Under the pieces are notes generated by a model, which worked only from the letters and a program-made list of their open reading frames with translations, made no database searches and had not been told where the DNA came from. A program made the translations under genes and the position numbers. 64,000 nt of DNA from Lepidurus packardi (Eukaryota > Arthropoda > Branchiopoda > Notostraca > Triopsidae), in assembly GCA_023053545.1 (NCBI GenBank), contig JAKZAN010000006.1:3291001-3355000 (forward strand). Direction: 5' to 3'. Below are positions 16,272 to 34,289 of the stretch, one piece after another (the first letter of the stretch is position 1; every line of letters starts with the position of its first letter).

Positions 16272-27163
<10,892 letters not shown>

Positions 27164-30437: not shown

Positions 30438-30443
30438 TTTTAT
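30438..30443 (-). promoter_or_regulatory. Polyadenylation signal for the SR protein gene
   Basis: AATAAA on the minus strand, about 470 nt past the SR stop codon and downstream of the second H/ACA RNA, so the 3' UTR or a 3'-UTR intron would contain that RNA. Confidence 0.55.
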
Positions 30444-30551
30444 TGATTTCTCTGGAACACTTGAAGTCACAATATCAAAACTTGTCACTCAATGGACAAG
30501 AAAAACGGGTTTCCCTCCGAACCAATGAAAATAAAGGATAATTAGTCAAAT

Positions 30552-30697
30552 GCATGTTCCCTGGCTTACGGCACATTCTAAGCCTTAGAAATGACTTGAA
30601 TGCTTCCTGCCAGGGACTTTAATTTGCCCTGTCGAATTTGTTTGGCACTGATCTGTCTTCTATAAAGAGAAGACCCAGCGTGGCGACCAGGACAAAT
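30552..30697 (-). ncRNA. Box H/ACA snoRNA, copy 2 (3' UTR/intron of the SR gene)
   Basis: Two-hairpin RNA in the sense direction of the host gene. The 3' hairpin is closed by TCCCTGGC/GCCAGGGA and followed by ACA (30557-30555) three nt from the predicted end. The hinge AAATTA fits box H (ANANNA). The 5' hairpin has a GTCTTCT/AGAAGAC upper stem. The 3' pocket has guides AGGAA and GCCG, and the right guide starts 15 nt before ACA, as the family rule requires. It lies after the stop codon. A strong GTAAGT donor at 30886-30881, 23 nt past the stop, suggests a 3'-UTR intron. The 5' end is approximate. It is homologous to the copy at 31476-31622. Confidence 0.82.
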
Positions 30698-30880
30698 TTA
30701 AGGATGTTTAAAATAAAATAATTAACCAAAATAAAGTCAAGTTGGAAAAATCGTCACATTTTCATTTTCAAGCTACAATTCTGTGGTATGGGGGGAAGAA
30801 TCAGCAATAAATGGAGAAAGGGGTAAGCAAAAATAGAATGCTAAGCGACGCCAACAATTACAACCATCGTCACGAATTGA

Positions 30881-30886
30881 ACTTAC
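30881..30886 (-). promoter_or_regulatory. Candidate 3'-UTR splice donor of the SR gene
   Basis: GTAAGT lies 23 nt after the stop codon on the minus strand. A junction this close to the stop would not be expected to trigger nonsense-mediated decay, and splicing here would place the downstream H/ACA RNA in an intron. The matching acceptor is not certain. Confidence 0.5.
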
Positions 30887-30909
30887 GGTCACGCTCTCGG
30901 GCTTTGCTC

Positions 30910-33900
30910 TTAATCATCCCTAGGACTACCTGAGCGAGAGCGCGATGCAGAGCGCGAGCGTGAACGGGACCGCCCATTGTCAGCATCACGTACTCTGTCG
31001 TCATCGCGATCATTGTCGATCTTGCTTCTGCGACCTTCTGAAGTATCCATTTCAGCATGGCCATTACGACCCGGGCTAGCACTACGGCTTCGACTGTGGG
31101 AACGCGAGCGTGATTTCTCCCTACAAATCAAAGAAAACAATTTCCGTTAGAATTGCTTCTTTTATCGTTCTGAACAATTACTGTAAACGTTTTCTTTAAA
31201 AGCATCAGTACACGTTGGGATATTAAATTGACATCAAAGAAATCAGTCCCGAAAGAGAGTCATCATTCAAAAACTCGTCAAGAACCTCTACTATATAAGA
31301 AATTGGCTTACTTGGACTTGGAGCGGGATTTAGAGCGAGAACGACTTCTAGACTTGGATTTGGAGTGCGATCGCGATTTGGAACGGTCGACAATCGGACG
31401 AGATCTGTAATTGAAAAGCAAAAAACTTTAAGAAAACGGACAAGTGTTTAAGACAGCATAGAAAAGGTGTACAAATTATGTCCCCTAACTTACGGCACAT
31501 TCTCAGCCACTGTCGACTCGAATGCTTCCTGTTAGGGGCTTACTTTACCCTGCCATTCAAAATAAGTTTGGCACTGGCTGTCTTTTATGATTAAAAGACC
31601 CAGCGTGGCGACCAGGGCTTATCTTCTTAACGAGTAAGACATAAATGGTTTACCTGGACTTTGAGCGAGAGTTCGAACGAGACTTGGACTTGGATCGGCT
31701 CTTAGACTTGCTTCTGGACCGACGACTACGGATCAGAGAAATATAAGAATTAGAATCACCGATAGCACAGCTAGTGAAAGTTGTCACGATTTAATTCATC
31801 AGTAACATAAGCTAACATCAGTAAAATCAGCCCCGAAAGATGGAAAACCATCACGTGAAAATTATAATAAATAACACGCTTTTAAATTCTTACCTGGATC
31901 GAGAGCGGGAACGCGACCTCGACCTGGACCGGCGGCGAGAGCGTGATCTGGAACGCGAGCGGGAATCCGAGCGAGAACGGGAACGTTTGCTACCGCCTTT
32001 GCCTCCTTTCCGGTCTTCGATTAGACGAATTCGCCGGCCGTTCAATTCGGAATCATCCAGCTTTTCAACAGCATTTTTCATGTCCGAGTACGAAGCAAAC
32101 TCCACCACACTAAGATAAAAAAAAATAGTTAATTAAACACCGAAACGATCTCTTGTTGTACGCAATAGTGGAAAATGCTTACCCTTCATTGCGGTGTTGT
32201 TTATGGGCATCAGCATACGTAACTTCTCCAGCTTGGCGCATAAAATCTTTCAAATCCTTCAAAAATAAACAACAAGAAGACCGTAAATTAGTAAATTCCA
32301 TTCCTTTACAAGCGTAACAGAATTTAAAATGTAACGAGCCCCCCACCCCACCCTCCCAAATCGCGTCTTCGTTTGGGTCCCTAGTTTTCCTTGTCAATGC
32401 AGTGGTAAAGGGATGGACTTCGTGGCTCGTATTTGCGTCAAGGGTTAGAGATATCAGAGCTTTAGCATCTCCATTGTTGGTTCAAATGCAGGTACTAGAT
32501 TGGCTGCTCAGTTCCATATCGTTCCACAGCTCTCGGGTCCTCCGGGTAAGGTCAGGGTCAGACAGGCTCATTTCTCTCACTGAAGGTCCTCGGTTCGTCC
32601 AAAGGATTTAGGATCCAGGAAAGTTGCAGAAGCCCGCCCAAAGACATAAGCTCCCTTGCATTTAATTATAGGCACGCAAAAGCGCACTTACTAAGGGTAA
32701 CAAGGGTTAGTTTGAGGTGTGGAAGGTATGGGGGTTACGCTAGGGAGGAATGTAGGCTGTGAAGGTCAATGTTTTCAACTTTTTGTTTAAGACCCATATC
32801 GGGATTTTGGTCTAACATGTTACCTGTTCCCTGGAGCCTGACCCGAAGATGACCTGCTAGATTGGCATTTGGCACTGACTTAGGCAATAAGATGGCATGG
32901 CTACGATTTTGGGGAGCAAGAAATGGAGCGAAGGTGGAACCACGCCCCAGAGGCTCTGTAACCAAGGTGATAACTGCACGGACAACATATGATCTGAAAC
33001 AAAACTGTTTAACATGACGCCCCCAGAAATAAGCTGTCAATTTCTGTCTTCGTATCATTGGCCTCATTTCCATGTCAGTATGATTTCGCCCACTGCCACC
33101 ATTAGCGTCTTGCAGAATCGCTGGTTTTTGATCGAGATATCGTTGAGGGGGAATAGGAGCTTAGTGTTGACATGGCACGTCTCAATGTCTGGTCGGACCA
33201 GAGGTGGCTAGGAAAATTGCGCCTTGGACTTGGCAATGGATTGTAGACACCATCTCATCATGTGACATCACACACCCAAGCAGTTAAGGAATGGACCCAA
33301 AGGTAAACCCGTGCTCGGCCTCTTACGTTTGTCTCTTTCAGCCTCGCGCCCTGACCAGCACACAATCTCGCCTCGGATTCTTGAGGCCGCAACAATAAGA
33401 TGGAAGGACCCAAAAAAATACTATGTCAATAAGATGACATGCGTAAAAACTAAACTTAAAACTTTTCTTTTTGAGCTTCAAAAAAGTTGGCTATAACATA
33501 ACATAACTGCGGGCAATTTACAGGCAAAATGCAACTAGAGAAGGGAACAAAAAAAGGTTGGCGTACCTGCCAGCTAACTCGAGAAGATAGGTTCTCCACC
33601 AGCACGCGATATTCTGTACGTTGAGGCGGACCATACCTGATACAAAAAATTAAATCATTAATACGAAATAACTATTCGATGTGTAAGATTTAAGAGTACA
33701 CAAAATTTAGAAAATGTATAGAAGACAAAGTCTATAAATGTTTTATATTACTTGTCTTGGCCGCGGCCCCGGTTGTCTTGACCCCGGGAACTGCGTCCGG
33801 ACTCCCTATATAGCCAGAAACAAGTATCACAAATTTGCTCAAAATAATGCATGGATCTCTATGCTATCACAGCCTTTAAAGGCTTAGCTAACATAAGAGG

Positions 33901-34289
33901 TTTAGAGTCATACCTGTCACTATAGCCACGACTTCGGCCACCGCCATAACTACCACCGCCACCCCGGCGTCCACTTCCGCGTGCATGTTCGACTGACACT
34001 CGATCTCCCAACAACTCTTTACCATTCAACTCATAAACTGCATCATCCGCATCTCGGTTGTCATCGAATTCCTGATATGTACAAACAACAATATTTACTC
34101 AAGCAGCACTTCGCAGACGCAAGGGAAAAGCGCGCATGCCAGTTTAGAACGAAAAAGGAAGCTTACCACAAAGCCGTAGCCGTTTTTAATTAAAACTTCA
34201 CGAAGTCGGCCATAATTTCTGAAGAATCTCTCTATATCTCTCTCACGAACGCGGTGGTTTAGGCCCCCAACGTAAACTCTGGTGCCCAT
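30910..34289 (-). CDS. SR splicing factor with two RRMs and RS domain (SRSF4/5/6, Drosophila B52 type)
   Basis: Nuclear pre-mRNA splicing regulator that binds exonic enhancers. Coding exons, 5' to 3': 34167-34289, 33914-34071, 33752-33805, 33567-33636, 32183-32256, 31894-32109, 31654-31725, 31312-31404, 30910-31120. All phases agree, giving 356 residues. RRM1 starts [10 protein letters not shown] and has KNGYGFVEF across the first junction. A Gly/Arg linker follows. RRM2 has [19 protein letters not shown], the SR-family signature at about 133-139. The RS domain runs from about 200 to the end. The best relatives are SRSF4, SRSF5 and SRSF6, and I cannot separate them. Exons 7 and 8 (72 and 93 nt) are symmetric phase-2 RS exons. 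Introns 6, 7 and 8 each carry a snoRNA. The 1.3-kb intron 4 is more than five times longer than any other. Confidence 0.95.
31200..31271 (-). ncRNA. Box C/D snoRNA, copy B (SR gene intron 8)
   Basis: In the sense strand of the 191-nt intron 8: box C ATGATGA (31266-31260), box D' CTGA (31246-31243), C' TGATGT (31236-31231) and box D CTGA (31208-31205). The element before D' ends CTTTCGGGA. Its TCTTTCGGG pairs with nine bases of 28S rRNA CCCGAAAGA, putting the fifth nucleotide before D' opposite the G of CCCGAAAG, a predicted 2'-O-methyl site. The guide before D has no target I recognise. It is related to copy A in intron 6 through the D' guide and box spacing. The terminal stem is weak. Confidence 0.8.
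31476..31622 (-). ncRNA. Box H/ACA snoRNA, copy 1 (SR gene intron 7)
   Basis: Sense to the host, within the 249-nt intron 7, with about 70 nt between its end and the acceptor. The 3' hairpin is closed by CCCCTAAC/GTTAGGGG, then ACA (31481-31479) and three nt. Hinge AAAGTA fits box H. The 5' hairpin has a GTCTTTTA/TAAAAGAC upper stem and a CCCTG/CAGGG lower stem. The pocket sequences AGGAA and GCCGTAA are identical to the copy at 30552-30697, while paired stem bases differ in a compensatory way. The predicted target is 28S rRNA CGGC-UC-UUCCU near the peptidyl-transferase centre, with 4+5 guide pairs. Confidence 0.88.
31794..31859 (-). ncRNA. Box C/D snoRNA, copy A (SR gene intron 6)
   Basis: In the sense strand of the 168-nt intron 6: box C GTGATGG (31854-31848, last base off consensus), D' CTGA (31830-31827), C' TGATGT (31820-31815) and D CTGA (31802-31799). 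A short terminal stem pairs UUCA with UGAA. The guide before D', CCATCTTTCGGG, is a 12-nt perfect complement to 28S rRNA CCCGAAAGATGG. The fifth nucleotide before D' faces the G of CCCGAAAG. From memory this corresponds to yeast 25S G805, served by snR39b, with the snR39/U32/U51 site two bases on. The second guide has no target I recognise. Confidence 0.85.
32257..33566 (-). other. SR gene intron 4 (1.3 kb)
   Basis: Lies inside RRM2, between SSRVSWQ and DLKDFMRQ. It is at least five times longer than the other introns of the gene, which are 73-249 nt. Nothing in it is recognisable as coding. SR genes commonly hold a poison cassette exon for autoregulation, and this is the only intron here roomy enough for a typical one. 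Confidence 0.6.

Follow-up and report, generated by a model that had tools for sequence, protein, structure and literature searches.

Host gene and snoRNA sequences

We analyzed a 64-kb stretch of Lepidurus packardi DNA (contig JAKZAN010000006.1, positions 3,291,001 to 3,355,000; here called the window), part of a 108.6-Mb assembly of 344 contigs. On its minus strand lies a gene for a serine/arginine-rich (SR) splicing protein that carries four predicted small nucleolar RNA (snoRNA) sequences, two of the C/D class (C/D-A and C/D-B) and two of the H/ACA class (H/ACA-1 and H/ACA-2). The host gene has nine coding exons separated by eight introns, all of them GT-AG, and its stop-terminated product is 356 amino acids long. 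The Pfam domain RRM_1 matched two stretches of the protein, followed by a long arginine/serine (RS) tail. Two RNA recognition motifs (RRMs), a C-terminal RS domain, and the motif SWQDLKD in the second RRM, as in SRSF4/5/6 (Srp55/B52) proteins, place the gene in that group. The named proteins among the best 120 of 2669 relatives were animal Srp55/SRSF4/6, mostly from arthropods, and SRSF6 entries were the best solved chains by sequence. These results agree with the initial annotation, which had called the host an SRSF4/5/6 gene with symmetric phase-2 RS exons of 72 and 93 nucleotides (nt). The peptide strings of exons 8 and 9 occurred in none of the best 120 of 2669 relatives. Phase symmetry is not peculiar to exons 7 and 8, because exons 3 (54 nt) and 6 (216 nt) are also 2-2.

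30910..34289, minus strand: coding span of the SR-protein host (SRSF4/5/6, Srp55/B52 type), from the gene model, relatives, RRM_1, and SRSF6 structures
34289-34167, 34071-33914, 33805-33752, 33636-33567, and 32256-32183, minus strand: host exons 1 to 5 (gene model)
32109-31894, 31725-31654, 31404-31312, and 31120-30910, minus strand: host exons 6 to 9, to the stop codon (gene model)
31654..31725, minus strand: RS exon 7, 72 nt, phase 2-2 (gene model)
31312..31404, minus strand: RS exon 8, 93 nt, phase 2-2 (gene model)
31793..31861, minus strand: predicted C/D-A snoRNA in intron 6, SNORD2/snR39B type (RF01299 at 35.3 bits, boxes, and 12 Watson-Crick pairs to a G site in the large-subunit [LSU] rRNA)
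31476..31620, minus strand: predicted H/ACA-1 snoRNA in intron 7, SNORA65/snR34 type (fold, bipartite pockets of 10+4 and 5+4 on LSU rRNA, and weak RF00302)
31205..31266, minus strand: predicted C/D-B snoRNA in intron 8, from box C to box D (boxes, D and D' guide pairing, and genome pattern match)
30552..30696, minus strand: predicted H/ACA-2 snoRNA downstream of the stop codon (identity to H/ACA-1, fold, pockets, and covariation)

Along the host, the order is C/D-A in intron 6, H/ACA-1 in intron 7, C/D-B in intron 8, and H/ACA-2 past the stop codon. The alternating order and the positions had been proposed in the initial annotation, and the gene model, boxes, folds, and guides all bear them out. 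Three of the four lie in introns of the gene model in the sense orientation; the fourth, H/ACA-2, is located in the 3' region and not inside the best intron there. The 3' splice site lies 73 nt past the end of box D in C/D-A, 84 nt past it in C/D-B, and 71 nt past the end of H/ACA-1. Such distances are in the usual range for spliced snoRNAs. Judged by their sequences, the four are predicted guide RNAs, two per class, that fit two ancient ribosome-modifying guide families. The analysis shows their sequences, boxes, folds, pairing to the genome's own ribosomal DNA (rDNA), and copy numbers (as searched).

Intron 4 (32257-33566, minus strand) is 1310 nt long; the seven other coding introns are 73 to 249 nt. 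Poison exons occur in other SR genes, and intron 4 could house a regulated exon of this kind.

Guide families and predicted rRNA targets

In both C/D sequences, boxes C, D', C', and D follow one another as they do in a short C/D RNA, and their spacing also agrees. The box C motif is RTGATGA, from which the GTGATGG of C/D-A differs by one change.

31854-31848 (GTGATGG), 31830-31827, 31820-31814, and 31802-31799, minus strand: boxes C, D', C', and D of C/D-A
31843-31831, minus strand: D' guide of C/D-A
31266-31260 (ATGATGA), 31246-31243, 31236-31230, and 31208-31205, minus strand: boxes C, D', C', and D of C/D-B
31257-31247 and 31220-31209, minus strand: D' guide and second (D) guide of C/D-B

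C/D-A matched the Rfam SNORD2 model (RF01299) over its full length with 35.3 bits (E of 0.00026 in a 5-kb search) and was the sole Rfam match at an E of ≤0.5 on both strands of the window. Among four SNORD2 matches listed across the whole assembly it scores highest; the rest reached at most 25.8 bits and lacked CTTTCGGG in the 120 nt inspected. For C/D-B, Rfam gave only weak archaeal sRNA matches (E of 0.45 and 4.3). RF01299 was not reported for C/D-B; this sequence is likened to SNORD2 by its guide and not by its profile. A pattern built from both copies (box C, a gap, CTTTCGGG, R, and CTGA) matched twice in the readable part of the assembly, both times at this locus, and the reversed control gave no match. 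Because the pattern was built from these two copies, only the absence of a third match in the readable part of the 108.6 Mb is informative. Used as a DNA query against the assembly, C/D-A found itself alone, so that this search does not see C/D-B.

Guide pairing was examined on the genome's own rDNA (L060, L069, L070, and L077), which is partly N. With CCCGAAAGATGG, the D' guide of C/D-A makes an uninterrupted run of 12 Watson-Crick pairs, which places the fifth nucleotide from box D' opposite a G of the LSU rRNA. The D' guide of C/D-B forms 9 unbroken Watson-Crick pairs at the same site, followed by a mismatch. Both D' guides can therefore be set on this G, which for C/D-B is not the best free match. 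RF01299 RNAs guide Gm1509 in human and Gm803 in yeast, and Gm812 of Arabidopsis occupies the same site (PMC3511168, Table 1). The guide of chicken snR39B, which sits in EIF4A2 intron 3, is likewise the one on the D' (5') side (PMC2653536). The D guide of C/D-B (31220-31209) forms 12 unbroken Watson-Crick pairs, starting from box D, with TACACGTTGGGA, the 12 nt of LSU rRNA directly upstream of C/D-B's own D' site. By a rough estimate, the chance of a 12-pair, box-D-anchored match within 100 nt of the site is 200 x 4^-12, or about 1e-5. This guide predicts a second methylation, at the C 11 nt before the conserved G. By our own reckoning of the numbering, a methylated C at this spot is absent from Table 1 of PMC3511168, and the guessed number C1072 was not found in the accessible text of PMC13228274. 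For the D guide of C/D-A, no target stood out in the four rDNA pieces, including 18S (48 of 100 shuffles did equally well).

Nineteen of the 20 matches of the LSU G-site pattern in the assembly read GGTGACCTA. The remaining one, on a single contig (C329), reads GGTGAACTA and perhaps comes from another eukaryote in the assembly.

H/ACA-1 and H/ACA-2 are 145 nt each and have the layout hairpin-H-hairpin-ACA. The H box is ANANNA, and the ACA box lies 3 nt from the RNA end. We placed the ends 3 nt past the ACA, so that the order of boxes and hairpins is the tested part of this layout.

31546-31541 (AAAGTA) and 31481-31479, minus strand: boxes H and ACA of H/ACA-1
30625-30620 (AAATTA) and 30557-30555, minus strand: boxes H and ACA of H/ACA-2

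The fold z-scores were -3.54 for H/ACA-1 and -4.92 for H/ACA-2, and none of 200 shuffles of either sequence folded as well. Taken singly, the 5' and 3' hairpins of H/ACA-1 were matched by 4 and 1 of 200 shuffles, the 5' hairpin being the weakest of the four, and neither hairpin of H/ACA-2 was matched by any of 200. In a DNA search of the assembly, H/ACA-1 found these two copies only, a lower bound on their number. The copies are 76% identical (E of 2.4e-19) and align with a score of 118, whereas 100 shuffles gave at most 28. Of the 38 pairs in the consensus fold, 3 are changed on both sides and kept, 2 are changed on one side and kept, and 0 are broken, the last figure being partly by construction because the fold was predicted from the two sequences. 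Drawn from two sequences, this covariation argues modestly for selection.

In both copies, the pockets pair as 10+4 (with one G-U) at U2079 and as 5+4 at U2133 of the readable L060, with the two uridines 54 nt apart, and no other site in the three rDNA pieces examined passed the same pocket thresholds. Chicken U65 directs its 5' pocket to 28S-3858 and its 3' pocket to 28S-3912, also 54 nt apart (PMC2653536), so that both copies here address two LSU sites in the order and spacing of chicken U65. The distance from the 3' pocket to the box is 15 nt in both copies. The likeness to SNORA65 rests on targets and layout, because the Rfam profile reaches only 19.5 of 70 bits.

Two further features were seen in these sequences. 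Each H/ACA RNA has a donor-like GTAAG in its right guide arm, at 30569 (minus strand) within GCCGTAAGC in H/ACA-2 and at 31493 (minus strand) within GCCGTAAGT in H/ACA-1. The LSU copies (C16 and L060-L062) differ near the peptidyl transferase center, and L061 lacks the second U65 target string; these differences suggest degenerate or interrupted rDNA copies.

The placement of H/ACA-2 depends on the 3' end of the host. The sole AATAAA between the stop codon and 30400 lies at 30444. Because this signal is downstream of H/ACA-2, H/ACA-2 is probably within the host transcript.

30781..30886, minus strand: most likely 3' untranslated region (UTR) intron (GTAAGT donor, branch-like CTGAT at 30804, and CCCCCCATACCACAG acceptor; judged by eye)
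30439..30444, minus strand: AATAAA polyadenylation signal past H/ACA-2 (sequence scan)

Reality of the snoRNAs and origin of the copies

Several observations weigh against the assignment of these four sequences to functional guides of the two families in one host. No Rfam match was obtained at curated thresholds anywhere in the 64-kb window; C/D-A is 1.7 bits under the RF01299 gathering score of 37, and H/ACA-1 scores 19.5 bits (E of 3.7) with RF00302, for which the gathering score is 70, H/ACA-2 not being reported. C/D-B has no stem right at its boxes, its 7-bp stem (with G-U pairs) being 5 nt away. The distance from the 5' pocket to the H box is 26 nt in H/ACA-1 and 21 nt in H/ACA-2, beyond the usual pocket-to-box distance of 14 to 16 nt. 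The best 3'-UTR intron (30886-30781, with a CAG acceptor) stops short of H/ACA-2; a longer intron containing it would need a weaker acceptor past 30552, where a branch-like CTAAT at 30545 is followed by GAG. The copy numbers apply to the part of the assembly outside N stretches, and the DNA search scores best candidates only. Blind searches of the rDNA also gave little: the best free score was reached by 9 (D' guide of C/D-A), 48 (D guide of C/D-A), 2 (D' guide of C/D-B), and 3 (D guide of C/D-B) of 100 shuffles, and in an earlier unanchored test by 2, 41, 4, and 1 of 60 in the same guide order. The best free match of the C/D-B D' guide lies elsewhere, at L069:2020 (11 Watson-Crick and 2 G-U pairs), and the 9 unbroken pairs of this guide at the shared site do not exceed the average best of the shuffles (9.1). 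Because these blind searches are not strong, the identity of the C/D targets rests on the known SNORD2 site and on the side-by-side guides of C/D-B.

One explanation of these shortfalls is that the sequences are chance resemblances in short introns, as the absence of any match at curated thresholds in the window might suggest. However, the sole Rfam match at an E of ≤0.5 in 64 kb is C/D-A itself, no shuffle of either H/ACA RNA folds as well as the sequence, and the H/ACA pockets land on both known U65 sites. We rejected a chance origin: it is highly improbable for C/D-A and both H/ACA sequences, and for the set as a whole scarcely credible; the case for C/D-B stands on its boxes and guides. 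Alternatively, C/D-B, H/ACA-2, or both might be decaying duplicates without function. The poor Rfam result of C/D-B, its weak terminal stem, and its 9 unbroken pairs only at the shared site fit such decay, as does the position of H/ACA-2 outside the best UTR intron. In contrast, H/ACA-2 shows three compensatory changes relative to H/ACA-1, the better fold z-score of the pair, and both pockets, and C/D-B retains four boxes and has a 12-bp guide that adjoins its D' target. We consider decay improbable.

The initial annotation had also claimed that the H/ACA RNA is duplicated, that the copies of each class share guide and layout, and that one tandem duplication of a C/D-exon-H/ACA-exon unit gave rise to both pairs. 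The first claim was confirmed: by their alignment, H/ACA-1 and H/ACA-2 are clear paralogs. The second was borne out for the H/ACA pockets and for the D' guide and boxes of the C/D pair, but C/D-B has a D guide with no counterpart in C/D-A. The third found no support, since the flanks show no clear likeness and exons 7 and 9 do not stand out.

A single unit duplication would have supplied the second set of snoRNAs and extended the RS domain at once. It would account for the alternating order, for the 2-2 phase of exons 7 and 8, and for the presence of each class twice with paralogous H/ACA copies. The alternation is weak evidence, as two RNAs of each class can be arranged in 6 orders, 2 of which alternate. 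Under this model the intron flanks and exons 7 and 9 should match. However, none of the four flank comparisons was clearly over the shuffles, the observed score being reached by 26, 26, 58, and 184 of 300. In codon-shuffle tests of the RS exons, the number of 300 shuffles reaching the score was 0 for exons 6-7, 1 for 6-9, 2 for 6-8, 3 for 7-8, 6 for 7-9, and 14 for 8-9. All RS exons are thus mildly alike, and the pair expected by the model, 7-9, does not stand out. The alignment score of exons 7 and 9 is 23, compared to 29 for exons 6 and 7 and 32 for exons 7 and 8; because the 7-9 match is the weaker, general RS-repeat likeness explains it. The lengths are also unequal (72 nt in exon 7 and 211 nt of coding sequence in exon 9), and the second rRNA guide is present in C/D-B alone. 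The C/D pair is alike mainly in its functional core, with agreement at 22 of 26 core positions (guide, D', and C') and at 26 of 56 outside, a generous figure because the alignment was gapped to fit and includes boxes C and D. Among all 78 pairs of 13 exon and intron segments, seven exceeded a z of 3.5, namely both snoRNA pairs, four pairs of RS exons, and a match between intron 8 and exon 7.

We rejected a recent duplication, as the flanks do not align, and we rejected the one-event unit duplication as a demonstrated history. The unit duplication is unsupported rather than refuted, because saturation after an old event would leave the same picture; it is possible but rather doubtful. A duplication of the C/D pair is likely, but an old or separate one.

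Searches for related loci elsewhere gave little. A 16-base H/ACA pattern matched 34 stretches in viral contigs, of which 2 had one of three further H/ACA motifs and none had two in the 170 nt inspected. The 95 prokaryote-contig and 19 viral-contig matches of SR-protein exon patterns yielded no confirmed locus.

Proposed guides from one transcript and comparison with known hosts

The SR-protein gene is very probably an ordinary snoRNA host that supplies four guides from one transcript. For such a host we infer expression, processing, modification, and history as follows, with broad expression of the host assumed. Splicing of introns 6, 7, and 8, followed by debranching and trimming, would release a SNORD2/snR39B-type C/D RNA, a SNORA65/snR34-type H/ACA RNA, and a second C/D RNA, and the 3' end of the same transcript would give the second H/ACA RNA. 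With their D' guides, both C/D RNAs would target the same conserved LSU G for 2'-O-methylation. Through its D box, C/D-B may also direct methylation of the C 11 nt upstream, or the pairing may merely hold the same region. Both H/ACA RNAs would direct pseudouridylation of the two LSU uridines 54 nt apart. The H/ACA copies would have arisen by duplication inside the host gene, and the C/D pair by an older or separate duplication, or it may have been rebuilt around the same guide.

The C/D RNAs resemble SNORD2/snR39B (RF01299, clan CL00072) in the D' guide to the same LSU G, the C-D'-C'-D layout, and the location in introns of a protein-coding gene (EIF4A2 in chicken; PMC2653536). In contrast to that family, there are two genes per host here, the host encodes an SR protein, and C/D-B has an extra D guide to adjacent LSU sequence. 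The H/ACA RNAs are like SNORA65/U65/snR34 (RF00302) in the two pockets that fit LSU uridines 54 nt apart and in the hairpin-H-hairpin-ACA layout, but they fit the Rfam profile poorly (19.5 of 70 bits), occur as two copies per host, and have a host other than RPL12, the chicken host (PMC2653536).

Intragenic (cis) duplicated clusters, such as the three U18 copies in introns 2, 5, and 6 of chicken RPL4, also consist of paralogous snoRNAs spread over separate introns of a single host gene (PMC2653536); here, however, both classes are doubled and alternate. C/D and H/ACA RNAs in separate introns of one protein-coding host are known from chicken EIF4A2, with snR39B in intron 3 and H/ACA RNAs in introns 8 and 9 (PMC2653536), whereas the present host is a splicing regulator and its copies are paired. 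In chicken, snoRNAs have been proposed to expand mainly through intragenic duplication (PMC2653536), and intronic snoRNA placement has been described as evolutionarily unstable (PMC3511168). The arrangement is a new example of a well-known kind, as paralogous and mixed-class snoRNAs within a host are established. The SR-protein host is the less usual part: among the entries listed by our literature searches, which were not exhaustive, no SR-protein gene was named as a snoRNA host, and we make no claim of a first report.

With this gene, a splicing regulator would join the kinds of genes that host ribosome-modification guides. Within the sequence searched, two ancient guide families would be supplied by one host, and host dependence is therefore testable. 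The extra methylation predicted for C/D-B is a precise, checkable claim. The locus also illustrates how far sequence reaches into duplication history, where the H/ACA paralogy is clear and a one-event unit duplication is not.

A bolder reading is that in this lineage one pre-mRNA yields an SR protein together with every guide detected for one conserved LSU methylation and two conserved LSU pseudouridines, that SR splicing and autoregulation set the guide supply, that C/D-B gained a second site, and that the SNORD2-type RNA and alternative 3'-UTR ends may influence SR splicing. SRSF4 crosslinks to snoRNAs, with the need for SR proteins in snoRNA processing left open (PMC3439968), and SNORD2 affects the splicing of its own encoding transcript (PMC10324135). 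Given these crosslinks and this effect on host splicing, it is conceivable that the SR protein and the snoRNAs of its gene form a loop, but the bolder reading as a whole is speculative and unlikely to hold in full.

Other observations in the window and assembly

A tRNA search gave no match. Open frames at 23180-27034 (minus strand) resemble, by eye, an SNF2-type helicase gene that may be INO80-like. COX1-like stretches are numerous on large contigs (L053 and others); they contain TGA codons and some TAA or TAG and are apparent nuclear mitochondrial copies. The few named hits obtained with one such copy include a shrimp and a fly, and with the SR-protein relatives they fit an arthropod, perhaps a crustacean. 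Three strong stop-free COX1 matches on small contigs look bacterial.

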